Assembly (NCBI RefSeq): GCF_001571365.1
Contig: NZ_BCTQ01000001.1
Span: 186,001 to 250,000 of the forward strand
DNA: 64,000 nucleotides
From: Achromobacter denitrificans NBRC 15125
GTDB lineage: Bacteria; Pseudomonadota; Gammaproteobacteria; Burkholderiales; Burkholderiaceae_B
Reading direction: 5' to 3'
Shown piece after piece: positions 6,666 through 22,333 of this stretch. Position numbers and translations under genes: made by a program. Below the pieces are notes generated by a model. It saw nothing but the letters and a program-made list of their open reading frames with translations, was not told the DNA's origin and did no database searches. Numbering within the stretch: position 1 is the stretch's first letter; the number at the start of each line of letters is the position of its first letter.

Positions 6666-9600
6666 GCCGCGCCGATCCGGACGTCCCGGCGCACCGTCAC
6701 GAGGAAGGCCGCTTCAACCTGTCGGCATGGGCCTTGCGCCACCAGCCGCTGGTCATCTTCATCATCACGCTGGTGACCCTCTTCGGCGTGCTGTCCTATT
6801 CCAAGCTGGCCCAGTCGGAAGACCCGCCCTTCACCTTCCGCGTCATGGTCATCAAGACGCTCTGGCCGGGCGCCACCGCCCAGCAGGTGCAGGAACAGGT
6901 CACCGACCGCATCGCCAAGAAGCTGCAGGAAGCCTCCAACACGGACTTCATGCGCAGCTATTCCCGGCCGGGCGAGTCCCTGATCTTCTACACCATGAAG
7001 GACTCCGCGCCCGCCAATACCGTCGCCGAGCAGTGGTACCAGGTCCGCAAGAAGGTCGGCGACATCGCGGCAACGCTGCCCCAGGGCGTGCAAGGACCGT
7101 TCTTCAATGACGAGTTCGGCGACGTCTACACCAACATCTACACACTGCAGGGCGACGGCTTTTCACCAGCCCAGCTGCGCGACTATGCCGACAAACTGCG
7201 CACGGTGCTGCTGCGCGTGCCCGGCGTGGGCAAGGTGGACTACTTCGGCGAACAGCCCGAACACGTCTACGTCGAAATCACCAATACCCAGCTGACCCGG
7301 CTGGGCGTGTCGCCCCAGCAGATCGCCCAGGCCATCAACAGCCAGAACGCCGTGGCGAACGCCGGCACGCTGACCACCGCCGACGACCGCGTCTTCGTGC
7401 GCCCCACGGGCCAGTACGCGAACAGCCGGGCGTTGGCGGACACCCTGATCCGGATCGACGGCAAGTCGGTCCGGCTGGGCGACATCGCCACGATCCGTCG
7501 CGGCTATGAGGATCCGCCCGTGGAGCAGATGCGGCTGGGCGGCCGCCTGGCGCTGGGCATCGGCATCACCATGCAGCCCGGCCGGGACGTGGTGCACCTG
7601 GGCAAGGCGCTGACCGCCAAGTTCGGCGAGCTGCAGGCCCAGTTGCCCGCCGGCCTCACGCTGAAGGAAGTTTCCAGCATGCCGCGGGCGGTATCGCACT
7701 CGGTCGACGACTTCCTGCGGTCGGTGGCGGAGGCGGTCGGCATCGTGCTGATCGTGAGCCTGGTCTCGCTGGGGCTGCGCACCGGCATGGTGGTGGTCAT
7801 TTCCATTCCGGTGGTGCTGGCGGTCACGGCGCTGTTCATGGACATGTTCGGCATCGGCCTGCACAAGGTGTCGCTGGGCACGCTGGTGCTGGCCCTGGGC
7901 CTGCTGGTGGACGACGCGATCATCGCCGTCGAGATGATGGCCGTGAAACTGGAACAGGGCTGGAGCCGGGCGCGCGCCGCCGCGTTCGCCTACACCAGCA
8001 CCGCCTTCCCCATGCTGACCGGCACGCTGGTCACGGTGGCGGGCTTCCTGCCGATCGCGCTGGCCAAGTCGAGCACGGGCGAGTACACCCGTTCGATCTT
8101 CCAGGTGTCCGCCATCGCGCTCATCACCTCCTGGTTCGCCGCCGTGGTGCTGATCCCGCTGCTGGGCTACCGGATGCTGCCCGAGCGCAAGCGCGAGGCC
8201 CATCTGCCCGACGGCCACGAGCACGACATCTACGACACCCGCTTCTACCGGCGCCTGCGGGGCTGGGTCGCGTGGTGCGTGGACCGCCGCTACCTGGTGC
8301 TGGGAGGCACGATAGTGACGTTCGCGGTGTCGATGGCAGGCTTCGGGCTGGTGCCCCAGCAGTTCTTCCCCAGTTCCGACCGCAGCGAACTGCTGGTGGA
8401 CGTCCGCCTGCAGGAAGGCGCCTCGTTCGCGGCCACGCTGCGCCAGGTGGAACGGCTGGAAAAGACGCTGGAAGGCCGCCCCGAGATCGAGCATTCGGTC
8501 AGCTTCGTGGGCACGGGCGCGCCGCGTTTCTACCTGCCGCTGGACCAGCAGCTCGCCACCCCCAACTTCGCCCAGCTGGTGATCACCGCCCACTCCGTGG
8601 AAGACCGCGAAAAGCTGGCCCAGTGGCTGCAGCCCATGCTGCGCGAGGAGTTCCCGGCCATCCGCACCCGCCTGTCGCGCCTCGAAAACGGGCCGCCCGT
8701 GGGCTTCCAGGTCCAGTTCCGCGTCAGCGGCGACCAGATCGCCGAAGTCCGCGCCGTGGCCGAGCGCGTGGCCGCCGAGGTCCGCGCCGACAAGCGCTCG
8801 ACGAACGTGCAATTCGACTGGGACGAGCCCTCCGAACGCTCGGTGCGCTTCGAGATCGACCAGCAGAAGGCGCGCGAGCTGGGCATCGCCTCCAGCGACG
8901 TGTCCGATTTCCTCGCCATGACGCTGTCCGGCTACGCGGTAACGCAATACCGCGAGCGCGACAAGCTGATCAACGTGAGCCTGCGCGCGCCGCTGGACGA
9001 ACGGATCGATCCGGCGCGCCTGGCGACGCTCGCCATGCCCACGCCCAATGGGCCGGTGCCGCTGGGCAGCCTGGGCCATGTCCGCTACGACCTGGAATAC
9101 GGCGTCATCTGGGAACGCGACCGCCAGCCCACCATCACGGTGCAGGCCGACGTGACCGCCGGCGCCCAAGGCATCGACGTCACCCGCGCCATCGATGCGA
9201 AGCTCGACGCCGTGCGCGCCGAGCTGCCCGTCGGCTACCGCATCGAGGTGGGCGGGCCGGTGGAGGAAAGCGGCAAGGGCCAATCCTCCATCAACGCCCA
9301 GATGCCGCTGATGGCGGTCGCGGTGCTGACGCTGCTGATGGTGCAGCTGCAGAGCTTCGCCAGGGTGCTGATGGTGGTGTTGACCGCCCCGCTGGGACTC
9401 ATCGGGGTGGTCGCCGCGCTGCTGATGTTCGGCAAGCCGTTCGGCTTCGTCGCCATGCTGGGCGTGATCGCCATGTTCGGCATCATCATGCGGAACTCGG
9501 TCATCCTGGTGGACCAGATCGAGCAGGACATCGGCGCAGGCCACAAGCGCGTGGACGCCATCGTCGGCGCCACGGTGCGGCGCTTCCGGCCCATCACGCT

Positions 9601-9829
9601 GACCGCCGCGGCCGCCGTGCTGGCCCTGATCCCGCTGTTGCGCAGCAACTTCTTCGGCCCCATGGCCACCGCCCTCATGGGCGGCATCACCAGCGCCACG
9701 GTGCTGACGCTGTTCTTCCTGCCCGCGCTCTACGCCGCCTGGTTCCGCGTCCGCCATGACGAGCGCGACGAACCCGAAGGCGTGCCGCCGGGCGCGAACG
9801 CCGGCGACACCGCGGAGCGGGGAGCATGA
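6662..9829 (+). CDS. RND efflux permease, inner-membrane pump (pump II)
   Basis: Full-length RND antiporter of 1055 residues. The pattern is TM1, a large periplasmic loop, TM2-6, a second tandem half with another large loop, then TM8-12. The TM4 proton-relay aspartates are visible in LGLLVDDAIIAVEMM, and the second half carries MFGIIMRNSVILVDQIEQD. The long N-terminus (MSRADPDVPAHRHEEGRFN) before the first membrane helix is more polar than in AcrB. The ATG at 6662 overlaps the adaptor stop, giving translational coupling, and the gene ends in an ATGA overlap with the OMF gene. Substrates are unknown; it resembles broad drug/biocide pumps rather than metal (CusA) pumps. Confidence 0.95.
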   Translation: MSRADPDVPAHRHEEGRFNLSAWALRHQPLVIFIITLVTLFGVLSYSKLAQSEDPPFTFRVMVIKTLWPGATAQQVQEQVTDRIAKKLQEASNTDFMRSYSRPGESLIFYTMKDSAPANTVAEQWYQVRKKVGDIAATLPQGVQGPFFNDEFGDVYTNIYTLQGDGFSPAQLRDYADKLRTVLLRVPGVGKVDYFGEQPEHVYVEITNTQLTRLGVSPQQIAQAINSQNAVANAGTLTTADDRVFVRPTGQYANSRALADTLIRIDGKSVRLGDIATIRRGYEDPPVEQMRLGGRLALGIGITMQPGRDVVHLGKALTAKFGELQAQLPAGLTLKEVSSMPRAVSHSVDDFLRSVAEAVGIVLIVSLVSLGLRTGMVVVISIPVVLAVTALFMDMFGIGLHKVSLGTLVLALGLLVDDAIIAVEMMAVKLEQGWSRARAAAFAYTSTAFPMLTGTLVTVAGFLPIALAKSSTGEYTRSIFQVSAIALITSWFAAVVLIPLLGYRMLPERKREAHLPDGHEHDIYDTRFYRRLRGWVAWCVDRRYLVLGGTIVTFAVSMAGFGLVPQQFFPSSDRSELLVDVRLQEGASFAATLRQVERLEKTLEGRPEIEHSVSFVGTGAPRFYLPLDQQLATPNFAQLVITAHSVEDREKLAQWLQPMLREEFPAIRTRLSRLENGPPVGFQVQFRVSGDQIAEVRAVAERVAAEVRADKRSTNVQFDWDEPSERSVRFEIDQQKARELGIASSDVSDFLAMTLSGYAVTQYRERDKLINVSLRAPLDERIDPARLATLAMPTPNGPVPLGSLGHVRYDLEYGVIWERDRQPTITVQADVTAGAQGIDVTRAIDAKLDAVRAELPVGYRIEVGGPVEESGKGQSSINAQMPLMAVAVLTLLMVQLQSFARVLMVVLTAPLGLIGVVAALLMFGKPFGFVAMLGVIAMFGIIMRNSVILVDQIEQDIGAGHKRVDAIVGATVRRFRPITLTAAAAVLALIPLLRSNFFGPMATALMGGITSATVLTLFFLPALYAAWFRVRHDERDEPEGVPPGANAGDTAERGA

Positions 9830-11304
9830 AGCCGATGACGATGACCCGATTCCCGATCCGTCCTTTTCGGTTGGCCGCCCTTCCGCTGACGCTTGCCCTG
9901 GGCGCCTGCGCCTTCGCCCCGGACGGCAAGCCGCCCGCCGTGGCGCCCCCCGCGCAATACGGCGTCGCCCCCACGCCCGCCGCGGGCGCCTCGGCCCAGG
10001 GGGTGGCGCAGCGTTTCGAACAGGGCGCCCGGCCGGTGCCCGAATGGTGGAAACGCTATGGCTCCGCCGCGCTCGACGCGCTGGTGGAGGAAGGTCTGGC
10101 CCACAGCCCGGACCTGGCGGCGGCGGAACGCAATCTTGCAGGCGCGCGCGAACAATTGCGCGGGCAGGTGAACTCGTCCATGCTGCCCTCGGTGGACGCC
10201 GGCGCGGACGCTTCGCGCAGGCGCGCGCTCACGATGCCGAACCTGCCCGAGCCGACGGCCCGCTACAACGTGTTCACCGGGCAGATCCACGCCCAGTACG
10301 ACCTGGACCTGTTCGGCGCGGCGCGCTTCGCCAACCTGTCCCTGGCCGCCCAGGTGGCGCAGCAGGCATTCCAGCTCGAATCCGCTCGGCGCTCGCTGGC
10401 CGGCAACATCGTCACCGGCGCCATCGCCGCCTCCGCGCTCGCGCAGCGCGTGGCCCTGACCGAAAAACAGGCGGTGCTGGCGCGCCAGGTGGCGCGCGAT
10501 ACGCAGCGCCGCTACGAGCTGGGCGCCGCCTCGCAGAACGACGCCCTCGACGCGGACCAGGACGCGGCCTCGCTGGAAGCCTCGCTGCCCGGATTGCGCG
10601 CGCGCTGGCATGCCACCCGCCACGCGCTGGCCGTGCTGCTGGGCCGCACGCCCGACCAGGCCCCGCCCGACCTGGATTTCGACATGCTGGCCGTGCCCGA
10701 GCAGGTGCCGGTGGTGGTGCCGTCCGAACTGCTGGCCTCGCGTCCGGACATCCTGCTGGCCGATGCCGTGGTGCAGGCCGCCGCGGCCGACGTGGGCGCG
10801 GCAACCGCGCAGCTGTTCCCCAGCCTGTCGCTGTCGGCCTCCATGGGCCAGGCGGGCTTCAACTGGCCGGCGGCGCTGTCGGGCGCCGGCTCCATCTGGG
10901 CCATCGGGGCGTCGCTGACGCAGCCCATCTTCCACGGCGGCGCGCTGCTGGCCGAGCGCAACGCGGCCAAGGAGCGCTACGAAGCGTCCCTGCTGCAGTA
11001 CAAGCAGACCGTGCTGACGGCATTCCGCGACGTGGCCGACACGCTGTCCCGGCTGGACGCGGGCGGGCAGGCGCTGGCCTCCGCCGAGTCGTCGCGGCAG
11101 GCGGCGGAGCAGTCGTACCGCAACACGGCCAGCCGCGTCCGCCTGGGCGCGCTGCCGCCCTATACCGAGTACGCGGCCGAGCAGCATTATGTCGCCGCCC
11201 GTTTGCGCGAAGTCGATTACGCCGACGCCCGCCTGACCGAAACCGCGGCGCTGTTCCAGGCCATGGGTTCGCCCGTGCGCGCGCAGGACCCCGCGCCGCG
11301 CTAG
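9826..11304 (+). CDS. NodT/OprM-type outer-membrane efflux lipoprotein (pump II)
   Basis: Outer-membrane channel subunit of 492 residues. The signal peptide ends in the lipobox LALGACA (Cys near residue 28), so it is a lipid-anchored TolC-like protein. The two repeated TolC/NodT modules are seen: WWKRYGSAALDALVEEGL with YDLDLFGAARFA, then ELLASRPDILLADA with QLFPSLSLSASMGQAGF and TQPIFHGGAL. Heptad-like Ala/Gln/Arg helices form the periplasmic barrel. ATG at 9826 overlaps the permease TGA by one base. With the adaptor and permease this completes a tripartite pump encoded in one operon. Confidence 0.94.
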   Translation: MKPMTMTRFPIRPFRLAALPLTLALGACAFAPDGKPPAVAPPAQYGVAPTPAAGASAQGVAQRFEQGARPVPEWWKRYGSAALDALVEEGLAHSPDLAAAERNLAGAREQLRGQVNSSMLPSVDAGADASRRRALTMPNLPEPTARYNVFTGQIHAQYDLDLFGAARFANLSLAAQVAQQAFQLESARRSLAGNIVTGAIAASALAQRVALTEKQAVLARQVARDTQRRYELGAASQNDALDADQDAASLEASLPGLRARWHATRHALAVLLGRTPDQAPPDLDFDMLAVPEQVPVVVPSELLASRPDILLADAVVQAAAADVGAATAQLFPSLSLSASMGQAGFNWPAALSGAGSIWAIGASLTQPIFHGGALLAERNAAKERYEASLLQYKQTVLTAFRDVADTLSRLDAGGQALASAESSRQAAEQSYRNTASRVRLGALPPYTEYAAEQHYVAARLREVDYADARLTETAALFQAMGSPVRAQDPAPR

Positions 11305-11477
11305 CCGGCGCGGGGTCGGAATTCCTCGCCCCGGCCGCCCAGGCCTGGGGCGCCTGTTCCCCATGCGCGACGCGAGCCCGGCAACGAATGAGCGCGCCCG
11401 CGCCCATGGGGACTACCCAGCTCGTCCGGCGCGCAACGTCCGTCCCTCCCTCCTGCCCTGGTAAACCCTGAGCAATA

Positions 11478-11487
11478 TTGGCGCCAA
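11478..11487. promoter_or_regulatory. Operator-like palindrome TTGGCGCCAA, site 1 of 3
   Basis: Perfect 10-bp palindrome inside ATATTGGCGCCAAAATAA, 71 bp before the ATG of the C45-family gene. The same 18-bp string occurs upstream of the second solute-binding-protein gene (16066 onward), and a longer palindrome with the same core lies before the transporter operon (21325-21340). I infer binding of the GntR repressor encoded at 16203-16823. A weak -10-like TAACAT lies downstream of the site. Confidence 0.65.
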
Positions 11488-11557
11488 AATAAGCTAACAT
11501 TTTTTGGCACTCATTTTTATTTCCCGATTCCGCGGCGCGCGGCGCCGCCTTCCGTCC

Positions 11558-12694
11558 ATGACCCAGATCACCCAATTCCCCTTCGTATCGGTTTCCGGTT
11601 CGCCCGAAGCCCGCGGCCGCTCCTATGGCCAACAAGCCGCCGACCGCGTGCGCAAGAGCGCCGCGATGTACGGCCAGACCCTGGTCGACCTGGGTTATGA
11701 CGCCATGGCGCGCACCCAGCTCATCACCGGCTTCGCCCGCGAGATCGAGAACTTCGCGCCCCATTACCTGGAAGAAATGCGCGGCATCGCCGCCGGCGCC
11801 GACGTGTCCTTCGAAGACATCGTCATGGTCAACGCGCGCACGGAAGTCATCGCCAAGGCCCGCGCCGAAAAGAAGAAGGCGGCCGAACTGGAGCCGGGCG
11901 ACGGCTGCACCGGCGCCATGATCCTGCCCACGCGCTCGGCCAACGGCCGCCTCATCCATGGCCAGAACTGGGATTGGCGCGCCGAGTGCGCCGAGACCGC
12001 CATCGTGCTGCGCGTGCGCAACGACAACGGCCCCGACATCCTGACCTTCGTCGAAGCGGGCGGCCTGGCGCGCAGCGGCCTCAACAGCGCCGGCGTCTCC
12101 ATCACCGCGAACTACCTGGAATCCGACCGCGACTTCCGCCAGCTCGGCGTGCCGCTGTCGCTGATCCGCCGCAAGGTGCTGGAGCAGGAACATTTCGCCC
12201 TCGCCATCAAGACGGTGGCGACCACGCCCAAGTCCTGCTCGAACAACATCATGATCGGCATGGCCGCCGGCTTCGGCGTGGACTACGAGTGCACGACCGA
12301 CGAAGCCTTCCCCATCTATCCGGGCAGCGACGACCTGATCGTCCACGCCAACCACTGGGTCAGCGAAGTCGCCCTGGGCAAGCTGCGCGACACCGGCCGC
12401 GCCAGCACGCCCGAGAGCGCCTACCGCGACTGGCGCGTGCGCCGCCTGCTCAACGAGCGCGAGCAACTGACGCGCGAAGACCTCAAGCGCGCCCTGTTCG
12501 ACGACTTCGGCGCGCCTTACTCGGTGTGCCGTCCGCCGCGCCCCGGCAGCCACGACAACCTGTCGGCCACGGTCGCCATGGTGATCATGGAGCCCGCCGC
12601 CGGCCTGATGGAAGTCGCCCCCCTGCCCGCCCTGAACCGCAGCTTCACGCGGTACAGCCTGAACGCCGAACCCGAACTGCTGGCCGCCGCCTGA
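11558..12694 (+). CDS. C45-family acyltransferase/amidohydrolase (penicillin acyltransferase-like)
   Basis: N-terminal-nucleophile hydrolase family protein of 378 residues. The hallmark is GDGCT, with Cys117 as expected nucleophile exposed by autocleavage after Gly116, followed by GRLIHGQNWDWR as in fungal isopenicillin-N acyltransferase and bacterial C45 homologues. Known members form or hydrolyse amide bonds of N-acyl compounds. The true substrate here is unknown; hydrolysis of an N-acyl amino acid or peptide imported by the neighbouring ABC system is plausible. I chose the ATG giving MTQITQFPFVSVSG because the longer frame from 11504 starts in the promoter region. No signal peptide is seen, so a cytoplasmic enzyme is likely. 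A solute-binding-protein gene follows 38 bp downstream. Confidence 0.88.
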   Translation: MTQITQFPFVSVSGSPEARGRSYGQQAADRVRKSAAMYGQTLVDLGYDAMARTQLITGFAREIENFAPHYLEEMRGIAAGADVSFEDIVMVNARTEVIAKARAEKKKAAELEPGDGCTGAMILPTRSANGRLIHGQNWDWRAECAETAIVLRVRNDNGPDILTFVEAGGLARSGLNSAGVSITANYLESDRDFRQLGVPLSLIRRKVLEQEHFALAIKTVATTPKSCSNNIMIGMAAGFGVDYECTTDEAFPIYPGSDDLIVHANHWVSEVALGKLRDTGRASTPESAYRDWRVRRLLNEREQLTREDLKRALFDDFGAPYSVCRPPRPGSHDNLSATVAMVIMEPAAGLMEVAPLPALNRSFTRYSLNAEPELLAAA

Positions 12695-12732
12695 ACCGGC
12701 GGGCGCTGGCGCAACCCGAGGAAGACGTAGCC

Positions 12733-14298
12733 ATGAAACTCCATTTACTGGGCGCCGCGCTGGCGCTGGCGCTGGGCGGCCTGTCGCTGCCCGCCGCCGC
12801 GCAGGCCGCCGCGCCGCTGCGCATTTCGCTTACGGCCGACATCCGTTCGACCGAACCCGGCGTCAACCGGGACAGCAATAGCGACGCGGTCGTGCTGCAT
12901 ATCGTCGAAGGCCTGGTGGCCTATGGCGAGGATGCGGAAGTCCGCCCGCTGCTGGCCAAGTCGGTCGACATCAGCCCGGATGGCAAGACCTACACGTTCA
13001 CGCTGCGCGACGGCGTGAAGTTCCACAATGGCGCGCCGCTGACCTCGGCGGACGTGCTGTGGAGCTGGCAGCACTACACGGCGGCCAAGTCGGGCTGGCG
13101 CTGCGCCAGCGAATTCGACGGACGCGGCACCGTGAAAGTGCTGGGCGTGGAAGCGCCGGACGCGAACACCGTCGTCTATCACCTGGAAAAGCCCAGCGCC
13201 CTGTTCCTGGCCTCGCTGGCACGCACCGATTGCGGCGGTGCCGGCATCCTGCACAAAGACTCCGTCAAGGCCGACGGCAGCTGGGACAAGCCCATCGGCA
13301 CCGGCCCGTTCTCGCTCGGCGAATGGAAGCGCGGCGAGTATGTAAGCCTGAAGAAGTTCGCCAACTATGCCAACCGTGGCGGCGCGCGTGACGGCTATAC
13401 CGGTTCCAAGCGCCCGCTCGTGGACGAGGTCCGGTTCGTGATCGTTCCCGACGACTCCACGGCCAAGGCCGCGCTGCAACGCGGCGATATCGACATCATC
13501 GAAGACGTCTCCAACAACGACGTCCCCGTGCTGCAGAAGACGCCGAACATCAAGGTGGCCTACGCCCCCGTGATGAGCATGACGGCGCTGCTGCTGCAGA
13601 CCAAGGATCCGGTGCTGTCCCACCCGAAGATGCGCCAGGCGCTGGCCCACGCCATCGACTACACGCAACTGGCCGCCGCCGTCACCGAAGGCCTGGCTCA
13701 GCCCAACAATTCCATCGTGCCCCTGGTGTCGCCGTACTACGACGCCACCCAGAAGCAGGGCTGGAGCTACGACGTCGCCAAGTCGCAGAAGCTGCTGCAG
13801 GAAGCCGGGTACAAGGGCCAGGAACTGGTGCTGCTGACGACCAAGCGCTATCCGCAGTCGTATAACTCGGCCGTGATCATCCAGGCCATGCTGCAATCGG
13901 CCGGCATCAACGCGCGCCTGTCGGTGGTGGAATGGGCCACGCAGCTGGACCGCTACAACGCCGGCACGTACCAGATGATGTCCTTCCCCTACTCCGCCCG
14001 CCTCGACGCGGCGCTGAGCTACGAGATGATGTCGGGCGACAAGGCCAAGCAGCCGCGCAAGGTTTGGGACAATCCGGAAGCGCTGAAGCTCATCGACGCA
14101 GCCTCGGTTGATTCCGAGTCGGCAAAGCGCCAGTCCTCGTTCGACCAACTGCACAAGCTGTTCCTCGCCGACGTTCCCAGCATCCCCCTGTACAACGGCC
14201 TCGATATCGGCGCCTTCCGCTCGGACATCAAGGGATACCAGCCGTGGGCAGTCAAGAAGCCGCGGGCCTGGGAAGTTGAGAGGGTTGCAACGCCCTGA
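12733..14298 (+). CDS. ABC transporter family-5 solute-binding protein, copy A
   Basis: Periplasmic peptide/dipeptide-type binding protein of 521 residues. The signal peptide MKLHLLGAALALALGGLSLPAAAQA is followed by LRISLTADIRSTEPGVNRDS and the SBP family 5 core: GKTYTFTLRDGVKFHNG, SADVLWSWQHY, KPIGTGPFSLGEWKRGEYV. It is a clear paralogue of the product at 14466-16025 (both have IRST.PGVNRD, GVKFHNGA.LTSADVLW and WATQLDRYN). It is probably co-transcribed with the C45 gene. No permease genes adjoin it, so it likely feeds the DppBC-like transporter at 16917-20331. Confidence 0.93.
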   Translation: MKLHLLGAALALALGGLSLPAAAQAAAPLRISLTADIRSTEPGVNRDSNSDAVVLHIVEGLVAYGEDAEVRPLLAKSVDISPDGKTYTFTLRDGVKFHNGAPLTSADVLWSWQHYTAAKSGWRCASEFDGRGTVKVLGVEAPDANTVVYHLEKPSALFLASLARTDCGGAGILHKDSVKADGSWDKPIGTGPFSLGEWKRGEYVSLKKFANYANRGGARDGYTGSKRPLVDEVRFVIVPDDSTAKAALQRGDIDIIEDVSNNDVPVLQKTPNIKVAYAPVMSMTALLLQTKDPVLSHPKMRQALAHAIDYTQLAAAVTEGLAQPNNSIVPLVSPYYDATQKQGWSYDVAKSQKLLQEAGYKGQELVLLTTKRYPQSYNSAVIIQAMLQSAGINARLSVVEWATQLDRYNAGTYQMMSFPYSARLDAALSYEMMSGDKAKQPRKVWDNPEALKLIDAASVDSESAKRQSSFDQLHKLFLADVPSIPLYNGLDIGAFRSDIKGYQPWAVKKPRAWEVERVATP

Positions 14299-14362
14299 TG
14301 GTTCTTCGTAGGTCGAGCCCGTGACGCCGCTGGACCTATGTATGTGAGAGGTTGATATGCCC

Positions 14363-14396
14363 GCCCAAAACGACCGCCCGCGCGGTCGTTTTGGGC
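14363..14396. terminator. Bidirectional terminator between the two convergent SBP genes
   Basis: A perfect inverted repeat with 15-bp arms (GCCCAAAACGACCGC and its complement) around a 4-nt loop. The A and T runs fall inside the arms, so either strand forms a GC-rich hairpin followed by TTTT. It sits 65 bp after the stop of copy A and 70 bp after that of copy B. Confidence 0.82.
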
Positions 14397-14465
14397 ATAC
14401 ACACATTCGGAAACTGACGCAGTGCTTGCTGCGCGGACACGGCCGGCGCCTAAAGAACCGAATCC

Positions 14466-16025
14466 TTACTTCCCGGCAACAATCTTCGTTTCCCACACTC
14501 GCGGCTTCCCCTCCCACACGGAGAAACCTTCCACGCGTTTGTTGTGCGCCCAGGCATCCGCGCCGTTGTACAGCACCAGCAGCGGCGTCTGTTCCAGCAT
14601 CAGGGTGTGCAGTTGGTCGAACAGGGCCTGGCGCTTGGCGGGGTCCGATTCCAGGAAGCTCTCGTCGATCAGCTTCTGGGCCGCAGGATCATCCCAGACC
14701 TTGCGCGGCTGCTTGGACTTGTCGCCGGCGAACTGCTCGAAGCTCAGGGCCGGGTCCAGGCGCGAGGAATAGGTGAAGGAGCTGATCTGGTACTTGCCGG
14801 TGTTGTAGCGGTCCAGCTGCGTGGCCCACTCCAGCACCTCGATCTTGGCGTTGATGCCCACCGCCTGCATCATGGCCTGGGCCATCACCGCCACCTGGTA
14901 GCTCGGCACGTGGGCGCGCTTGTTGGCGTAGATGACGATGGGCTCGCCCTTGTAGCCGGCTTCCTTCAGCAATTGCTGCGCGCGCGCCGGGTCGTACTTG
15001 TAGGTGCGCTTCTCCGAATCCTGATAGTAGGCCGACCCCGCGTGCACGGCGGAGTTGTTCAACTGGCCCAGGCCTTCGGAGGCCGCGGCCACCACTTGCG
15101 GGATGTCCAGCGAGGCCGCGATGGCCTGGCGCAGCTTCACGTTCTTCAGCACCGGATCCTGCGTCTGGAACAACAGCGTGTGCTTGGTGGCGTCGTGCGG
15201 ACCGAACACGGTCAGGTTGCGCGAATTCTTCAGTTCGGCGACGTCGGTGCTGGTGATCTGCCCGGCGTCGATCGCGCCCGAGGCCATGCCCGCCTTCGAA
15301 GTCGAGGGGTCCGGCACCACCAGGAACTTGACCTCGTCCACCAGCGGCCGTTTGGAGCCGACATAGCCGTCCGGTTTGTCGCCGGCGGGAGAGACGTAGT
15401 CCTTGAAGGCGGACAACAGCGCGTATTCGCCGCGTTTCCATTCCTTGAGGGTGAAGGGCCCGGTGCCCACCGGCTTGATCCAGGAACCGTCGGCCGCGAC
15501 GGAATCCTTGGAAAGGATGGCCGTCATGCCGCAATCGGTGCGCGCCAGCGAATCCAGGAACACCGCGGACTTGCGGTCCAGCTTCATCACCACGGTCCGG
15601 GCGTCGGGCGCGAACACCTCGGTCACTTTCAGCCCGTTGCGGCCGTCGAAATCGCTGCGGCAACGCCAATCCGTCTTCGGATCCATGTAGCGCTCCCAGT
15701 TCCACAGCACGTCGGCCGAGGTCAGCGTGGCGCCGTTATGGAACTTCACGCCGTCGCGCAGCTTGAAGGTGTAGGTCAGGCCGTCTTCCGACAAGTCCAC
15801 CGACTTGGCCAGCAAGGGCGCCACGGTGCCGTTCTCGCGATAGCCGACCAGGCCTTCGACGATATTGAGCACCACGCCGTCGGTCGTGTTGTCGCGGTTG
15901 ACGCCAGGATTGGTGGAGCGGATGTCGGCGGGTTGGGCGACGGTCAGCAGTTCTGCCTGGACCGGAGCGGCGGCAGCCAGCGCCAGGCTGAGCGCGAGCG
16001 CTCTGGGAACGAAAACGTGGTGCAT
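14466..16025 (-). CDS. ABC transporter family-5 solute-binding protein, copy B
   Basis: Second peptide-type binding protein, 519 residues. I start at MHHVFVPRALALSLALAAAAP, where GGGGAG lies upstream; the longer reading from 16151 crosses the operator and promoter. After the signal peptide (cleavage near PVQAE) comes VAQPADIRSTNPGVNRD, then TYTFKLRDGVKFHNGA, SADVLWNWERY, KPVGTGPFTLKEWKRGEYA and WATQLDRYNTGKYQ. Large parts align residue for residue with copy A, but the binding-pocket regions differ, suggesting two related ligands or affinities for one transporter. It is a single-gene unit bounded by the terminator at 14363 and the operator at 16068. Confidence 0.93.
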   Translation of the reverse strand: MHHVFVPRALALSLALAAAAPVQAELLTVAQPADIRSTNPGVNRDNTTDGVVLNIVEGLVGYRENGTVAPLLAKSVDLSEDGLTYTFKLRDGVKFHNGATLTSADVLWNWERYMDPKTDWRCRSDFDGRNGLKVTEVFAPDARTVVMKLDRKSAVFLDSLARTDCGMTAILSKDSVAADGSWIKPVGTGPFTLKEWKRGEYALLSAFKDYVSPAGDKPDGYVGSKRPLVDEVKFLVVPDPSTSKAGMASGAIDAGQITSTDVAELKNSRNLTVFGPHDATKHTLLFQTQDPVLKNVKLRQAIAASLDIPQVVAAASEGLGQLNNSAVHAGSAYYQDSEKRTYKYDPARAQQLLKEAGYKGEPIVIYANKRAHVPSYQVAVMAQAMMQAVGINAKIEVLEWATQLDRYNTGKYQISSFTYSSRLDPALSFEQFAGDKSKQPRKVWDDPAAQKLIDESFLESDPAKRQALFDQLHTLMLEQTPLLVLYNGADAWAHNKRVEGFSVWEGKPRVWETKIVAGK

Positions 16026-16061
16026 GCAAAAAACTCCCCGGCGTGCGGCGCAAAATTCACG

Positions 16062-16090
16062 CATATATTGGCGCCAAAATAATCTCGCAA
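16062..16090 (-). promoter_or_regulatory. Promoter with TTGGCGCCAA operator, site 2 of 3
   Basis: On the minus strand TTGCGA (16090-16085) and TATATG (16067-16062) lie 17 bp apart. The perfect palindrome TTGGCGCCAA (16068-16077) fills the promoter-proximal end of that spacer. This position is typical of repression by blocking RNA polymerase. The transcript would start about 30 nt before the ATG of SBP copy B at 16025. The regulator gene is about 40 bp beyond the SBP promoter region on the other side, making its GntR product the obvious candidate. Confidence 0.62.
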
Positions 16091-16202
16091 TTATGGACGG
16101 TCTGCCGCCCGCCGCCATACGGGGTATCCCTGAAACGCGCCCCAAATGCATCGCGGCGGCCCCTTTTCAGGAAGCCGCCGCGATGGCCGGAGTATCAGGC
16201 TT

Positions 16203-16823
16203 TCAGGAAATGTCCTGGCCGACGTGGGCCGCGATGATTTTCTGCAGCCGTTTCACGTCGCGCGCCTCCAGCGCCTCGACCATGTCGAAGTGCTCGCGGG
16301 CGGACGTTTCGATGCGCGAACGCGTCACCCACTCCTTGGCGGGCGCGGCCGGCCCGCGAGCGCGGGTTTCCTGGATCAGGGCGGCCAGCTCGCGGTTGCT
16401 GCACATCTCGTACATGCCAGCATGGAAAGCCAGGTTGACTTCATATTGCTCCAGCAGCGTGCCATCCTGGAGCAATTTGTCGAAGCGCTCGGCCAGGGCG
16501 CGCAACGCCCGCACCTTGGCGGCGGTGACGTTGGGCATGAGGTCCGCCGCCGCGCCGGTCTCCAGCAGGATGCGGATATCCCGGATCTGCAGGTGCAGGT
16601 CCGGGTCCATCGCGTAGACGTGGTAGCCCCGGTTCGGAATGTGCGCAATCAGCCGCTTCGCGGCCAATTGGTCTAGCGCCCGCCGGACGTCCAGGCGCTT
16701 GGCCTCGTAACGTTCCTGCAGGTCGATCTGTTTCAGCCAGGCGCCGGGACCATATACGCCCGCTTGAATATCATGGGCAATACGATCAACCAGGCCGGGC
16801 CGTGTCGCCGCCGCTTTCGGCAT
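16203..16823 (-). CDS. GntR-family (FadR/FCD subfamily) regulator
   Basis: Transcription factor of 206 residues. The N-terminal winged helix (about 8-68) contains DIQAGVYGPGAWLKQIDL, DVRRALDQLAAKRLI and the wing HIPNRGYHVYAMD. The C-terminal all-helical FCD domain (about 75-200) includes IRILLETGAAADLM and the likely metal/ligand-site histidines in LAFHAGMYEMCSN and SAREHFDMVEAL. GGGAGG precedes the ATG at 16823. It is the last gene of the minus-strand cluster, 93 bp after the ATPase gene, and lies between the three copies of the TTGGCGCCAA palindrome. It is most likely their repressor, released by a transported compound or its hydrolysis product. Confidence 0.92.
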   Translation of the reverse strand: MPKAAATRPGLVDRIAHDIQAGVYGPGAWLKQIDLQERYEAKRLDVRRALDQLAAKRLIAHIPNRGYHVYAMDPDLHLQIRDIRILLETGAAADLMPNVTAAKVRALRALAERFDKLLQDGTLLEQYEVNLAFHAGMYEMCSNRELAALIQETRARGPAAPAKEWVTRSRIETSAREHFDMVEALEARDVKRLQKIIAAHVGQDIS

Positions 16824-16916
16824 GGACCCCTCCCGTCAATCAAATCCGAAGCGCGTATTTTAGGGGCAAGTGCGCGCCGCGCCAGCAGGCGCGCGCGCGA
16901 CGCCTCGCCCCAGGGC

Positions 16917-18572
16917 TTACGCGGTGGCCCTCAAGGCCTCCTGCCCCTCCAGCCGCCAGCGCAGGCGGACCCCGCCGGCGTCGGTGGATTCCAGCGCCGG
17001 GATCGCCGACAGCAGGCTGCGGGTGTAGTCCTCGCGCGGGCGGTCGAACACTTCGTCGCGGGAGCCCTGCTCCACGATGCCGCCGTCGCGCATGACCACC
17101 ACGCGGTCGGCCACCTGCTCCACCACGCCCAGGTCGTGGCTGATGAACAGGCAGGAGAAGCCGTGGCGCTCCTGCAGGTCGGCGAACAGGTCCAGCACCT
17201 GCGCCCGCACCGTCACGTCCAGCGCCGAAACCGGCTCGTCGGCGATCACGAAGGCGGGCCGCCGGACGACGGCGCGCGCGATCGCCACGCGCTGGCGCTG
17301 GCCGCCGGACAACTCGTGCGGGAAGCGCTTGGCATACTCGGAGCCCAGGCCCACTTCGGCCAGCACCTCGTCCACGCGCCGCCGCTTGTCGGCCGCCGGC
17401 ATGTCGTCCAGCATCCGCAGGCCCTCGCCCACCAACTGCCCGATGGTCATGCGCGGGTCCAGCGAGGAATACGGATCCTGGAACACCATCTGGCAATTCA
17501 GCCGGTAATCGCGCCAGGCGGGCGAACGGCGCGCGACCTGCTGGCCGCGGAACAGGATCTGGCCCGAGGTCGGCGTCAGCAGCCCGGCGATGGCCCGGCC
17601 CAGCGTCGTCTTGCCCGAGCCGGACCCTCCCACCACTGCCACGACTTCCCGCGGCTTGACGTGCAGGTCGATGCCGTTGAGCGCCCGCTTGGCGCCCGTG
17701 CGGGAGAACAGCCGCTGGTGGCCCGCGTAGTCCACGATCAGGTTGCGGACCTCGACGATGGGCGCTTCCTTGGTCTGCGGACGCGCCGGCTGCCGGCGCG
17801 GCATGGCGTCCAGCAGCTTGCGGGTGTAGGGATGCTGCGGCCGTTCCAGGATGCCGGCCGTGGTGCCGGTTTCCAGCACCTTGCCGTGCTGCATCACCAC
17901 CATGCGCTCGGTGTAGCGCGCCACCATCGGCAGGTCGTGGCTGATCATCAGCACGGCCGTATGGTGCTCGCGGGTCAGGTCCACCATCAGTTCCAGCACG
18001 TCCCGCTGCACCACGGCGTCCAGCGCGGTGGTGGGCTCGTCGGCGATCAGGAGCGCGGGTTCGAGCAGCATCACCGAGGCCAGCATCATGCGCTGGCGCA
18101 TGCCGCCCGAGAACTCGTGCGGCCAGGCCTCGGTCGCGCCCTTGGGATCGCGGATGCCCACGCGCCGCAGCATCTCCAGAATGCGTTCGCGGCGCGCTGC
18201 CCCGGACAGATCGCGGCGGTGCAGCTTCAGGCCTTCGTCCAGCTGGCGCCCGATGGGCATGGAAGGGTTGAGCGAAGTCATGGGTTCCTGGAACACCATG
18301 CCGATGCGCGCGCCCCGCAACTTGCGCAGGGCGGACTGGCTCGCCTTGGTGACGTCGATGCCCTCGAACAGGATGGAGCCGCCCGCCGCCACCAAAGGCT
18401 GCGGGGTCAGGCCCATGATGGCGCGAGCCGCCTGAGTCTTGCCGCTGCCGGATTCCCCCACGATGCCGACCATCTCGCCGGGCGCCACCTCGAAGGACAC
18501 CCCGCCGACGATCTCGCGCCCGCCCGGGCCCACCGTCAGCGACAGATTCGATACGGATACCAGTGCGCTCAT
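16917..18572 (-). CDS. Fused dipeptide-type ABC transporter ATPase (DppD-DppF fusion)
   Basis: Two complete ABC ATPase domains in one 551-residue polypeptide. The N-half has Walker A GESGSGKT (39-46), signature FSGGMRQR and Walker [13 protein letters not shown]. The C-half has Walker A GGSGSGKT, signature LSGGQRQRVAIARA and Walker B FVIADEPVSALD. Each half ends in the oligopeptide-transport C-terminal extension (RPQHPYTRKLLDAMP; RPREDYTRSLLSAIP). The fused form replaces separate DppD and DppF subunits and energises the permease pair encoded just upstream, whose stop overlaps this ATG (TAATG). Confidence 0.95.
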   Translation of the reverse strand: MSALVSVSNLSLTVGPGGREIVGGVSFEVAPGEMVGIVGESGSGKTQAARAIMGLTPQPLVAAGGSILFEGIDVTKASQSALRKLRGARIGMVFQEPMTSLNPSMPIGRQLDEGLKLHRRDLSGAARRERILEMLRRVGIRDPKGATEAWPHEFSGGMRQRMMLASVMLLEPALLIADEPTTALDAVVQRDVLELMVDLTREHHTAVLMISHDLPMVARYTERMVVMQHGKVLETGTTAGILERPQHPYTRKLLDAMPRRQPARPQTKEAPIVEVRNLIVDYAGHQRLFSRTGAKRALNGIDLHVKPREVVAVVGGSGSGKTTLGRAIAGLLTPTSGQILFRGQQVARRSPAWRDYRLNCQMVFQDPYSSLDPRMTIGQLVGEGLRMLDDMPAADKRRRVDEVLAEVGLGSEYAKRFPHELSGGQRQRVAIARAVVRRPAFVIADEPVSALDVTVRAQVLDLFADLQERHGFSCLFISHDLGVVEQVADRVVVMRDGGIVEQGSRDEVFDRPREDYTRSLLSAIPALESTDAGGVRLRWRLEGQEALRATA

Positions 18573-19390
18573 TACACGCCCCTCATGCGGGGATCGAAGC
18601 GGTCTCGCACCGCGTCGCCCAGCAGGTTGATCCCCAGCAGCGCGAGCGCGATGGCCAGGCCGGGAAGAATGGATAGATAGGATGCCTGCGCCATGAACGG
18701 CCGCGCCGCCGCGAGCATATTGCCCCAGGTGGGCGCGGGCGGCGGCACGCCCAGGCCCAGGAAGGACAGCGCGCTTTCCGCCAGGATCACCCAGCCGAAC
18801 ATGGACGTGGCCAGCACCGTCAACGGCGCGACGCAGTTGGGCAGCACGTGGCGGAACATGGTGTAGAGCTCGGAGTTTCCCAACACGCGGGAAGACTCGA
18901 TGAACTCCTTTTCGCGCAGGGACAGCACCGTGCCCCGCACGATGCGCGTCACCGAGGGCGTGTAGGCCAGCCCCAGCGCGAGGATGATGCCGTACTTGTT
19001 GGCGCCCACCACGGCCAGCAGGCCGAGCGCCAGCAGCAGGCCGGGAAAGGCCAGCAGCGCGTTGTTGAAGGCCATGATGATGCGGTCGGTCCAGCCCCGC
19101 ACGAAGCCCGTCAGGGTGCCGATCGCCGTGCCCGCCACGATGGCGAAGCTGACGGTCAGCAGGCTGATCCAGACGCTGCTCGACGCCCCCGCCAGCAGGC
19201 GGGACAGTTCGTCGCGGCCGAACTCGTCGGTGCCCAGCAGGAATTCCCCGCCGGGCGGCCGCAGGCGGGCCGCAAAATTGATCTTGAGCGGGTCATAGGG
19301 AGTCCAGAAGGCGCCCATGATCGCCGCGACGATCATCAGCGCCACGATCGCGCCGCCCAGCAGCGCGTTGGCCGGAATTCGCTTTTTCAT
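18572..19390 (-). CDS. Dipeptide-type ABC transporter permease (DppC-like)
   Basis: Inner-membrane permease of 272 residues with an N-terminal membrane helix (ALLGGAIVALMIVAAIMGAFW) and a BPD transporter domain. DppC marks are LRPPGGEFLLGTDEFGRDELSRLLAGA near the N-terminus and the coupling-helix EAA region (SSRVLGNSELYTMFRHVLPN). The ATG at 19390 overlaps the DppB-like stop (ATGA). A longer in-frame reading to 20059 only overlaps that permease gene and was rejected. Confidence 0.94.
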   Translation of the reverse strand: MKKRIPANALLGGAIVALMIVAAIMGAFWTPYDPLKINFAARLRPPGGEFLLGTDEFGRDELSRLLAGASSSVWISLLTVSFAIVAGTAIGTLTGFVRGWTDRIIMAFNNALLAFPGLLLALGLLAVVGANKYGIILALGLAYTPSVTRIVRGTVLSLREKEFIESSRVLGNSELYTMFRHVLPNCVAPLTVLATSMFGWVILAESALSFLGLGVPPPAPTWGNMLAAARPFMAQASYLSILPGLAIALALLGINLLGDAVRDRFDPRMRGV

Positions 19391-20331
19391 TCGGCGGTCA
19401 CTCTCGGGTCGAAAAGGGGATAGCAGAGATCGATCAGCAGGTTCACGATCACGTAGACCACGCCCACGAACAGCAGGCAGCCCTGGATCACGGGATAGTC
19501 GCGGGCGAAGATCGAATCCACGAGCAGACGGCCCAGGCCGGGAATCGTGAACACCGTTTCCACGACGGCGATGCCGCCCAGCAGGTTGCCCAGCACCAGG
19601 CCGATCAGCGTCCAGGTGGGGCCGAAGGCGTTGCGGAAGGCATGGCGCGTCAGCACGGCGAATTCGGACAGGCCCTTGGCTCGCGCATGAGTGATGTAGT
19701 CCAGCCGCAGCACTTCCAGCGTGCTGGCCCGGGCCATGCGCATCAGCACGCCGATCTCGTGCAGGAACAGCGTGGCGATCGGCATGACCAGGTACAGCAG
19801 GCCGGCCTTCCAGTCGTCGCCGATGGATACGTAGCCCACCACCGGCAGCCATTGCAGCTTCAGGCCGAAGAAGATCAGCAGCAGCAGGCCCAGCCAGAAG
19901 GTCGGGATGGACACCAGCAGCGTGGCGGTCCCCACCAGGAACAGGTCGGGCGCCTTGTTCTGCTTCCAGGCCGCGATCATGCCGGCCGGCACCGCCACCA
20001 TCGCGGCAAACAGCACCGCCACCAGCACCACGCGGCCGCTGATCAGGAAACGGTCCCACACCAGCGGCAGCACGGGCTGGCCGGTATTGATGGAGGCGCC
20101 CAGGTCGCCGTGCAGCATGTTGCCGAACCAGATGCCGAACTGCGTGGCCCAGGTCTGGTCCAGGCCCAGCCTGCCGCGCAGGTCGGCCAGCGCGGCAGGC
20201 GTGGCCAGATCGCCCAGCAGCAGCTGGGCCGGATCGCCGGGAATGAGCCGGATCATTACGAACACGGCCACCGCCACGATCAGCAGCGTGGGCACGGCCA
20301 TGACGATACGGGATAGCGCGAAACGCAACAT
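19387..20331 (-). CDS. Dipeptide-type ABC transporter permease (DppB-like)
   Basis: Inner-membrane permease of 314 residues. The DppB-type N-terminus is MLRFALSRIVMAVPTLLIVAVAVFVMIRLIPGDPAQLLLGD. Six hydrophobic segments follow, with the EAA loop (THARAKGLSEFAVLTRHAFRN) and the C-terminal VVETVFTIPGLGRLLVDSIFARDYPVIQG. It is the first transport gene after the hydrolase at 20393 on the same strand, 61 bp downstream, and overlaps the DppC-like gene. It forms the translocation channel for ligands bound by the nearby family-5 binding proteins. Confidence 0.95.
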   Translation of the reverse strand: MLRFALSRIVMAVPTLLIVAVAVFVMIRLIPGDPAQLLLGDLATPAALADLRGRLGLDQTWATQFGIWFGNMLHGDLGASINTGQPVLPLVWDRFLISGRVVLVAVLFAAMVAVPAGMIAAWKQNKAPDLFLVGTATLLVSIPTFWLGLLLLIFFGLKLQWLPVVGYVSIGDDWKAGLLYLVMPIATLFLHEIGVLMRMARASTLEVLRLDYITHARAKGLSEFAVLTRHAFRNAFGPTWTLIGLVLGNLLGGIAVVETVFTIPGLGRLLVDSIFARDYPVIQGCLLFVGVVYVIVNLLIDLCYPLFDPRVTAE

Positions 20332-20392
20332 GGCCCTCTCCTATCGCCCGGCGCGGACGCTGCCGCGCCGCGGGCTCTTCAAGAATTCAGTG

Positions 20393-21256
20393 TTACGCAT
20401 TGCGCAGCCTGGCCAGCGCCGACGCCAGGAAGTCCTGGACTTCGCCCACGCACTTCAGGCCGTCGTGCGGCACGTTGTCCACCAGGTCGAGCGTGACGTT
20501 CACGCCCGCCGCCTCGAACGAGCGGCGCAGCGATTCCAGCCGCTCCGGACGATTCCGGCCGGCGGAGTTGGCGCCCGGCATGAAGAACTTGCCGCCTTCG
20601 CGATGGGTGATTTCCCAGGTTTCCAGGTCGGCCTTGCCGACCACCATGTGCACGGCCACGCGGCGCAGGGCGTCCACGTCGATGCCCTTGCCGAAGCGGG
20701 TTTCGGCGTCGCGCACGCCCACCCACCAGTCCTGCTCGGGATCCAGCAGCGTCACCGAACCCGGCGCGCCGATCGATACCGCCCACAGGCGTTCCGGATG
20801 GAGCAATGCGAAGCGGTTCACGAACTGGCCGCCGCCCGAATAGCCGAACAGGGCGAACTGCTCGAAATCGCGGCCGAACTTCTCGCCCACTTCCGCCACC
20901 ATGTCCAGCAGGATATGGTCATAGCGGATTTCCCCTTCGCGCAGCTGCTTGAAGCCGTCGCGGTTGCCGTCGCCCAGCGGGCCGACGGGGAACAGCGGGC
21001 AGAGCACGATGCAATCGTTCCAGCGGGCGAACTCGGCGAACGCGTCGCGGTACTCCACGAAGGCCCGGCCCGTGCCGTGCATGATCACGACCAGTTCCAT
21101 CGGGTGCCGGGCCGCGTCGATGTGCGGCGGCACGTACATGCAATAGGAAAAGCGCGGATCGGTGCGCGCGGCGAAGACGGTGCTGTGCCCCAGGTCGTAG
21201 ATGGCGCGGGCGCGGGCGGCGTCGGGTTGGATGGCGAGTGCTGCGTCGGACTGCAT
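20393..21256 (-). CDS. Alpha/beta-hydrolase (esterase/PHB-depolymerase-like)
   Basis: Predicted cytoplasmic hydrolase of 287 residues. The nucleophile elbow is FGYSGGGQFVNRFALLHPE; the oxyanion segment is MELVVIMHGTGRAF; a late His (DNVPHDGLKC) is a likely catalytic residue. I start at MQSDAALAIQPD, where GAGGAAACC precedes the ATG; the longer reading from 21337 runs back through the operator. It is the promoter-proximal gene of the hydrolase-permease-permease-ATPase unit and lies 71 bp downstream of operator site 3. It therefore probably acts on the imported compound or on the C45 enzyme's product. The substrate is unknown. Confidence 0.88.
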   Translation of the reverse strand: MQSDAALAIQPDAARARAIYDLGHSTVFAARTDPRFSYCMYVPPHIDAARHPMELVVIMHGTGRAFVEYRDAFAEFARWNDCIVLCPLFPVGPLGDGNRDGFKQLREGEIRYDHILLDMVAEVGEKFGRDFEQFALFGYSGGGQFVNRFALLHPERLWAVSIGAPGSVTLLDPEQDWWVGVRDAETRFGKGIDVDALRRVAVHMVVGKADLETWEITHREGGKFFMPGANSAGRNRPERLESLRRSFEAAGVNVTLDLVDNVPHDGLKCVGEVQDFLASALARLRNA

Positions 21257-21318
21257 GGTTTCCTCGTTTCCATGGCCGCGTCGCGGGCCATGGTCTGTGC
21301 CGGTGGTCAAAACAATGA

Positions 21319-21347
21319 TCACATAAATTGGCGCCAATTTTAGGCAT
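21319..21347 (-). promoter_or_regulatory. TTGGCGCCAA operator, site 3 of 3, before the transporter operon
   Basis: The strongest copy: AAATTGGCGCCAATTT (21325-21340) is a perfect 16-bp palindrome. On the minus strand the core sits in a 17-bp spacer between weak hexamers GATGCC (21347-21342) and TATGTG (21324-21319), the same geometry as site 2. It precedes the alpha/beta-hydrolase gene, the first of the transporter operon. Confidence 0.6.
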
Positions 21348-21415
21348 CAGTGATCCGACACAACAAGGCAGGGGATTCCCTAGGGCGGCTGGTCCGGCAG
21401 GCGGAAGGCCGGGGC

Positions 21416-22333
21416 TCAGCCCTTGCCCAGCAGCCGCTTGGCCAGGCCGACCGCGCCCAGCACCACGGCCCCGGCCACCACGCCGAACAACGCGTTGAGC
21501 ACGGTGGACACCAGTGCAGGCACCACGCCGCCCTCGCCCACCGCCGCGGCGGCGCCTTCGATGGCGGCGTACAAGGGCGCGATGCCGTGCGTCAGAATGG
21601 CGCCGCCGACCATGAACATGGCGGCCGTCCCCACCACGGACAGCGTTTTCATCAGGTAGGGCGCGGCGCCCACGATGCGCCGGCCCAGCCAGGCCAGCGC
21701 CTGCGAGGACTTGCGGCTGAGGTACAGGCCCAGGTCGTCGAGCTTGACGATGCCGGCCACCAGCCCATAGACGCCGACCGTCATGGCGATGGCGATGATG
21801 GACAGCACCATGACCTGGCGGGTGAAGTCGGCGTCCGCCACCGCCCCCAGGCTGATGACGATGATTTCCGCCGACAGGATGAAATCGGTGCGCACCGCGC
21901 CTTTGATCTTGCCGCGCTCGAAGGCCACCATGTCGACCGCCTGGTCCTGCAGCGCGTCGGCGCGCGCCGCGTGGTGGTTTTCGGCGGAGTCGCCGTGCGA
22001 CAGGTATTTGTGGGCCAGCTTTTCGACGCCCTCGTAGCAGAGGAAGGCGCCGCCCAGCATCAATAGCGGCGTGATGGCCCAGGGCGCGAAGGCGCTGATG
22101 AGCAGCGCCGCCGGCACCAGGATCAGCTTGTTGACGAAGGAGCCCTTGGCAACCGCCCAGACCACCGGCAGCTCGCGGTTGACGGGGACGCCGGTGACCT
22201 GCTGCGCATTGAGCGCCAGGTCGTCGCCCAGCACGCCGGCGGTTTTCTTGGCGGCCACCTTGGTCATGACGGATACGTCGTCCAGTATGGTGGCGATGTC
22301 GTCGAACAATGCGAAAAAGCTGCTTCCGGCCAT
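21416..22333 (-). CDS. yedI: DUF808 inner-membrane protein (YedI-like)
   Basis: Conserved membrane protein of 305 residues. The family N-terminus [48 protein letters not shown] is diagnostic for DUF808. Several membrane segments follow ([33 protein letters not shown] and others), with the conserved EKLAHKYL and [14 protein letters not shown]. The function of the family is not known; in E. coli it is annotated only as an inner-membrane protein. The ATG at 22333 is preceded by GGGG at workable spacing. It appears monocistronic. Confidence 0.9.

Follow-up and report, generated by a model that had tools for sequence, protein, structure and literature searches.

The genome of Achromobacter denitrificans NBRC 15125 contains a locus in which the 10-bp palindrome TTGGCGCCAA is repeated in front of three gene units, which raises the question of whether it is an operator and, if so, which protein reads it. 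The locus was analysed within a stretch of 64,000 nucleotides (positions 186,001 to 250,000 of contig NZ_BCTQ01000001.1, assembly GCF_001571365.1), referred to here as the window. It encodes a C45-family protein, an alpha/beta-hydrolase-like protein, two solute-binding proteins (SBP-A and SBP-B), a Dpp-type importer and a 206-amino-acid regulator of the FCD/GntR type (16203-16823, minus strand). As judged from sequence comparisons, the palindrome is very probably the operator of this protein, which would be an autoregulated repressor of the VanR group controlling the three units. That the regulator reads the palindrome is very likely because the palindrome follows the regulator, and not the enzymes, in related genomes.

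The palindrome was recovered at 11478-11487, 16068-16077 and 21328-21337, exactly where a first-pass annotation of the same DNA had placed it, with no further exact copy anywhere in the window. An 18-bp string, ATATTGGCGCCAAAATAA, is common to sites 1 and 2, while site 3 is the longer palindrome AAATTGGCGCCAATTT, both as previously reported. Putative operator 1 stands before the C45 unit, putative operator 2 is located 42 bp upstream of the inferred start of SBP-B, and putative operator 3 is located 71 bp upstream of the inferred start of the hydrolase; all three were assigned from the exact match and from conservation in the genus. In total, seven exact copies were identified in the genome (6,699,273 bases, 97 contigs), as compared to a single match to the reversed control pattern. 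When seven sites were placed at random, three fell within so short a span in 40 of 200,000 simulations. Three of the four copies outside the window are located within reading frames, where they code for IGAN, IGAK and VGAK. The fourth, an extended copy (G000:C24:988-1001, with the 10-mer at C24:990), was not counted as a member of the regulon, since the corresponding stretch retains its palindrome in genome G014, from which the GntR gene is absent. This copy (L007) is part of a conserved intergenic stretch with TTGGCGCCAA that was also seen in L090, L091, L092 and L095 and appears to be some other conserved element. The first-pass annotation had named a frequent and randomly placed palindrome as grounds for refuting its reading; this is not the case in this genome, but several relatives contain more copies of the bare 10-mer.

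We compared the promoters of the locus across 43 Achromobacter genomes, of which 33 contain the regulator at E ≤ 1e-30; stretches were taken from 32 of these besides that of the window. A promoter was regarded as checkable if the gene start and its upstream stretch were both inside the DNA examined. All genes with checkable promoters, those of the window included, have the exact palindrome upstream: C45 in 18 of 18 cases, SBP-B in 33 of 33 and the hydrolase in 31 of 31. Another 15 C45 genes are located in shorter stretches and, among the matches listed, WWTTGGCGCCAAWW was within 70 bp of the C45 match for nine of them. None of the 43 genomes lacks the bare 10-mer, which has 2 to 30 copies (0 to 8 for the reversed control) and was therefore replaced as a genus-wide marker by its A/T-flanked form, WWTTGGCGCCAAWW. 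The latter occurs in 3 to 6 copies in each of the 33 GntR-positive genomes, whereas the 10 GntR-negative genomes contain either no copy (seven genomes) or one copy (three genomes); the control pattern gave no matches. Only the A/T-flanked form tracks the regulator.

Beyond the genus, the regulator was identified in 47 of 268 genomes of the family at E ≤ 1e-45, of which 14 are not Achromobacter. The inferred operator, TTGGNNCCAA, was recovered in all 14 of these loci and in six alphaproteobacterial plasmid loci chosen from 478 plasmid records with a GntR match (20/20). In L088, a locus with a GntR protein of 58% identity, the palindromes are TTGGCACCAA, TTGGTGCCAA and TTGGTGCCAA. All three have CA/TG at the centre, and this concerted change fits one protein reading all three sites. 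A more distant set of 59 loci, with GntR proteins that are 47-74% identical, was obtained from the best 80 of 220 loci in a scan of named genomes with the GntR alignment after 21 close Achromobacter loci (L096-L115, L119) had been left out; it overlaps with the family and plasmid loci, several records being identical. All 59 loci contain TTGGNNCCAA, as compared to 11.15 on average over 20 first-order Markov resamples, with GC-rich palindromes being nearly as frequent over the whole locus (58/59). In the 400 bp preceding the GntR match, TTGGNNCCAA was found in 43 loci against 0.4 expected and ranked first of 256 such palindromes. The second-ranked palindrome, CCAANNTTGG (33/59), is at least partly explained by overlapping extra half-boxes. 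In 14 of the 16 loci with no site in this interval, GntR is encoded within a run of genes or as its last member and the site is more remote; the remaining two are Pseudomonas loci with the site before C45.

It is hardly credible that the palindrome is a repeat of chance or structural origin, such as a hairpin or a methylation site, with no dedicated protein. The one-mismatch count in the window, which is modestly above that of shuffled sequences, and the presence of the bare 10-mer throughout the genus would agree with such an origin, but not the exact conservation at three orthologous promoters, the presence in every distant locus and the concerted change of the centre. Chance clustering was rejected on the genome count, the genus promoters and the distant loci.

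The gene content of the distant loci separates the regulator from the enzymes. The hydrolase is encoded in 28 loci, of which 21 also encode C45. The other 31 contain an M20 peptidase, accompanied by an M28 peptidase in 17, with neither C45 nor hydrolase in the stretch, and the motif is present in all 31. A third half-box, CCAANNTTGGNNCCAA or its mirror, precedes the GntR match by about 140-300 bp in 28 of the 31 M20 loci (L142-L175), which suggests a protein-DNA complex larger than one dimer. Conversely, Achromobacter genomes encode paralogs of C45 (49-68% identical) and of the hydrolase (52-67% identical), mostly with importer genes. At eight loci with such paralogs, one of which contributes only the C45 paralog of the own genome, we identified neither TTGGNNCCAA nor a match to this GntR protein at E ≤ 1e-8. 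Presence in the M20 loci and absence at the enzyme paralogs show that the motif follows the regulator, and together with the centres in L088 they support the proposal of the first-pass annotation that the local GntR protein is the probable reader. Among the three paralog loci for which genes were listed, L180 has LysR-like genes close to the cassette and L176 encodes a GntR-like protein of a different type. This protein (12586-13491), encoded beside a paralogous C45 operon, appears by eye to have two winged-helix segments ahead of an FCD-like region, and a GntR gene of similar length (12525-13406) adjoins the C45 gene in Chelatococcus L070. Two C45 paralogs (G015:C1:854098-855213 and G030:C4:264948-266063) contain one in-frame TAG each.

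These patterns make it improbable that another, unlinked regulator, for example a second FCD protein, reads the palindrome while the local GntR protein only travels with the cassette. The own genome does encode at least one other FCD regulator beside a ATTGGNNCCAAT palindrome, so the motif families overlap: at L190 (G000:C8:171524-171535), ATTGGATCCAAT is located between a second FCD gene, the product of which is 25% identical, and a divergent gene that is TctC-like by eye. This palindrome has AT and not CG at its centre, however, and it is the only copy of the W-flanked frame with an AT centre in the genome. Moreover, the motif accompanies this GntR subfamily despite different structural genes and is absent from the paralog loci.

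Additional palindromes extend the putative regulon in some genomes. One or two were found beyond site 3 in 8 of the 32 genus loci (L044, L046, L048, L053, L057, L058, L067, L069). In the loci whose genes were read, an AsnC-like gene is located at one of the extra palindromes in L046, L048, L053 and L067, as well as in the Bordetella-type loci L078 and L079, with an ornithine cyclodeaminase-like gene divergent to it in L067. A gene for a FecA-like TonB receptor is divergent to the AsnC-like gene in L046 (13055-15929) and L048, and would represent an outer-membrane arm that is absent there in the window. The TonB receptor and AsnC-like genes were rejected as core members, being absent at this place in the window. 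A gene for an S12-like hydrolase with a beta-lactamase fold, present in only 2 of the 43 genus genomes and preceded by the palindrome in both (L093, 1856-3346; L094), is a possible recent recruit to the regulon. An S12-related reading frame, identified by eye, adjoins SBP-A in L082.

The arrangement of the sites also differs among genera. The site stands directly before C45 in 11 of the 21 distant loci with both C45 and hydrolase. In three Pandoraea loci, C45, the hydrolase, the transporter, GntR and SBP-B are all encoded on one strand behind a single site, and no separate one precedes SBP-B. In the seven alphaproteobacterial loci without a site before C45 (Microvirga, Chelatococcus and Mesorhizobium; L126, L127, L129-L132, L136), the promoter of the hydrolase is the sole cassette promoter with such a site. 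Because of such exceptions, control of the cassette in other genera does not always follow the unit-by-unit pattern of Achromobacter.

Several observations weigh against control of all three units by this regulator, or lessen the force of the comparisons. In the window, eight one-mismatch matches were found against a shuffle mean of 3.59, and 3 of 100 shuffles reached eight, so that this count taken alone is weak evidence. The genus rows are close relatives, and the 59 distant loci were selected by their GntR peptides. The bare 10-mer is present in GntR-negative genomes too, in up to 25 copies. Neither the hydrolase nor the orthologous C45 is encoded in these 10 genomes (a C45 that is 46% identical is present in one), so the contrast between GntR-positive and GntR-negative genomes partly reflects loss of the whole locus and was set aside as independent proof. 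The zero sites at the eight paralog loci compare with only about 1.5 matches expected by chance. In L082, AsnC-like and cyclodeaminase-like genes are present with no extra site. The C45 gene has no site before it in 9 of the 21 loci mentioned above, namely the seven alphaproteobacterial loci and two from Candidimonas (L120, L121). It is located downstream of GntR on the same strand in L134, and in two Pseudomonas loci (L158, L161) the site is found at C45 with none at the divergent promoter between the hydrolase and GntR. Finally, no -35 hexamer could be assigned with certainty from the conserved flanks or from a promoter scan.

The positions of the sites relative to the -10 boxes bear on the direction of control. 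At site 2, a conserved CATAAT box is located 5' of the palindrome, and at site 3 a TAAAAT box in the conserved flanks overlaps the left edge of the palindrome. According to the first-pass annotation, site 2 fills the 17-bp spacer of a -35/-10 pair. Such a pair can be read on the minus strand (TTGCGA-17-TATATG), but TTGCGA varies among the 33 genus rows, and the scan of 11300-21600 produced one match as compared to a shuffle mean of 1.0. Palindromes located at a -10 box, or slightly downstream of one, are compatible with repression without proving it. It is unlikely, given what is described for related proteins, that this regulator is an activator or has a dual role instead of being a plain repressor. 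With CATAAT upstream of the palindrome and no settled -35 hexamer, the geometry of site 2 is no proof of repression; the overlap at site 3 has, on the other hand, the geometry of a blocking site, and the available text on Atu1419 and AlkR describes both as repressors with palindromes at the -10 box or between the promoter boxes (PMC7797058, PMC12042122).

The gene assignments of the first-pass annotation (C45, two binding proteins, permeases, fused ATPase, GntR and hydrolase) agree with the profile searches, the match for the hydrolase being weak. Site 1 heads two genes on the plus strand. The first encodes the C45 autoproteolytic acyltransferase/hydrolase (11558-12694, with an inferred ATG start in an open reading frame mechanically called from 11504), which scored 291.5 bits against NF040521 (cut-off 85) and also matches PF03417. 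It resembles 2x1d, an acyl-CoA:6-APA acyltransferase-like structure, with which it aligns at DGCT. The conserved cysteine of C45 proteins is expected to become N-terminal after self-cleavage. The second gene, apparently co-transcribed with C45, encodes the periplasmic SBP-A of the SBP_bac_5 family (12733-14298; PF00496). Site 2 heads the gene for SBP-B (14466-16025, minus strand; PF00496), likewise a periplasmic protein of this family, which is 57% identical to SBP-A over 493 columns and for which the best solved chain was AgaA, followed by DppA. The start codons of both binding proteins are inferred ATGs.

Site 3 heads a run of five genes on the minus strand. The run starts with the alpha/beta-hydrolase-like protein (20393-21256; inferred ATG start), in which a GYSGGG motif was identified by eye. 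No Pfam family was matched by this protein at 1e-3, and it showed weak similarity to poly(Asp) hydrolase-1 (about 40 bits) and LpqC; its score of 27.4 bits against the PHA depolymerase/poly(Asp) hydrolase-like family (NF050058) is below the cut-off of 150. It is followed by ABC permease B (19387-20331; PF00528 and PF19300), ABC permease C (18572-19480; PF00528), the start of which is not settled (mechanical open reading frame to 20059), and a two-domain ABC ATPase of the Dpp/Opp D+F type (16917-18572; two stretches of PF00005). The regulator is the last gene of the run and would thus control its own run. With SBP_bac_5 proteins, two BPD_transp_1 permeases and two ATPase domains, the importer belongs to the Dpp/Opp/Nik group. 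SBP-B and both permeases scored below the cut-offs of every listed NCBIfam equivalog and no substrate is thereby named; the ATPase exceeded those of several single-domain models (CntD, CntF, NikD and NikE, among the best 25 of 195), which was not taken as evidence for a substrate. An RND pump (ACR_tran) and an outer-membrane channel, without a palindrome of their own, are encoded directly upstream of operator 1 (6584-11304), and a DUF808 gene is located beyond site 3.

In the scheme that we infer from these genes and sites, from DNA binding and repression through release by the effector to operon structure, cleavage in the cytoplasm and class of substrate, a GntR dimer would occupy each TTGG-CG-CCAA site with one half-site per winged helix. 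Binding at or just downstream of the promoters of C45 and SBP-A, of SBP-B, and of the run from the hydrolase through permease B, permease C and the ATPase to GntR would repress all three units, including the operon of the regulator itself. The imported compound or a breakdown product would fill the FCD pocket and release the dimer; by analogy with other FCD regulators, the effector is probably a small carboxylate or an amino-acid-like molecule. The two binding proteins would then feed the one Dpp-type importer, and the C45 amidase and the hydrolase would cut the imported product. Cleavage is placed in the cytoplasm because no signal peptide was evident by eye in either enzyme.

The suggestion of the first-pass annotation that an N-acyl or peptide-like compound is taken up and cleaved fits the gene families, and an amide- or peptide-like compound is a reasonable substrate class. 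The alternative module offers further hints. Its M20 protein is most similar to HmrA and next to Xaa-Arg dipeptidase, and its binding protein is nearest to the lysine/arginine/ornithine family, with a score below the cut-off; together these suggest conjugates of basic amino acids. A gene that exceeds the ornithine cyclodeaminase cut-off is located about 100 bp from a palindrome in one Achromobacter genome, and an omega-aminotransferase gene comes after a paralogous cassette. Taken together, the families hint at conjugates of basic or omega-amino acids. Tentatively, and with more doubt than confidence, a single subfamily of FCD repressors with the frame ATTGG-NN-CCAAT may control two unrelated modules across Alpha-, Beta- and Gammaproteobacteria, either C45, the alpha/beta hydrolase and a Dpp importer, or M20 (with or without M28) and a polar amino-acid importer. 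If this is true, and if the effector was kept while the enzymes were exchanged, both modules would handle the same class of compounds. The exchange of enzyme modules beside a constant regulator amounts to a natural experiment on what the repressor senses. More generally, a probable regulator with its operator gives a handle on the substrate of this widespread amide/peptide catabolic cassette, since compounds can be screened for release of a small repressor from a 10-bp site.

We also compared the regulator and its sites to known systems. In line with the first-pass annotation, which knew of no system of this composition, we found neither the gene set with its operator nor a substrate described in our searches of the open-licence literature in PubMed Central (PMC); strings of TTGGCGCCAA in PMC12724174 are primer sequence. 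The kind of system is nevertheless known. The regulator passed the cut-offs for both of its domains, with 36.8 bits for PF00392 (cut-off 27) and 75.2 bits for PF07729 (cut-off 24.3), and its structural model (mean pLDDT 89) shows a winged helix and an FCD domain with six long helices (74-98, 101-120, 123-138, 144-155, 168-186 and 190-201, plus a short one at 160-163). The effector domain of AlkR is likewise described with six helices, alpha4 to alpha9, in the available text of PMC12042122. Six effector-domain helices with no additional one would place the modelled protein in the VanR group. The closest solved folds among the top 35 Foldseek rows are FCD regulators with 14-26% identity (7u5q, Atu1419, DhdR and McbR), many of which tie, and no single closest structural relative was singled out. 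Invariant residues in 19 sequences are R43 and R47 in the helix-turn-helix region and H134, H178 and H200 in the FCD domain.

Atu1419 of Agrobacterium fabrum (Foldseek E-value 7e-9, 18% identity) is similar in being an FCD/GntR protein of the VanR group with perfect 10-bp palindromes at the promoters of one catabolic region that includes its own gene, and a helix-3 arginine reads an essential G of its palindrome; it differs in the palindrome, ATGTATACAT and not TTGGCGCCAA, and in its target, a region for hydroxycinnamic acid degradation (available text of PMC7797058). AlkR of Pseudomonas aeruginosa is a GntR/VanR repressor that shares the VanR-group fold (9isw), a palindrome over the promoter and release by a ligand, but its site is ATTGTCAGACAAT, its target an alkane monooxygenase and its ligands acyl-CoAs, as given in the sections available of PMC12042122. 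DhdR (9jpj, 9jpk, 9vkn) is an FCD/GntR protein with an inducer-binding domain, superimposable over 126 residues at 2.1 Å (9jpk_B), with only 21-25% identity and, according to the entry title, L2HG as its ligand. Comparative genomics of FadR-subfamily regulons has described local regulators, few operons and palindromic sites, as well as extra half-boxes 7-12 nt from the centre that resemble the extra CCAA/TTGG boxes of the M20 loci (PMC4494728, in the part available). The consensus of that subfamily, NyGTNxACNy, differs from the inner GG/CC step of TTGGNNCCAA; we regard it as a frequent and not a defining trait, as exceptions that include NanR and BioR are given there, and the word "acyltransferase" is absent from the main text as available (PMC4494728).

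A resemblance in the site itself concerns vanillate genes, which VanR controls in Caulobacter crescentus. The palindrome at L190, ATTGGATCCAAT, is what we take to be vanO, the operator of this VanR. It has the frame ATTGG-NN-CCAAT in common with the sites studied here, with AT at the centre in place of CG. In the available text of PMC6538847, ATTGGATCCAAT is found in inserts in the 5' untranslated region behind the vanillate promoter and is not named as an operator. The frame may be common to FCD regulators, with the centre setting the specificity, and its occurrence with differing centres beside two FCD regulators in one genome bears on how sites are kept separate within this family.

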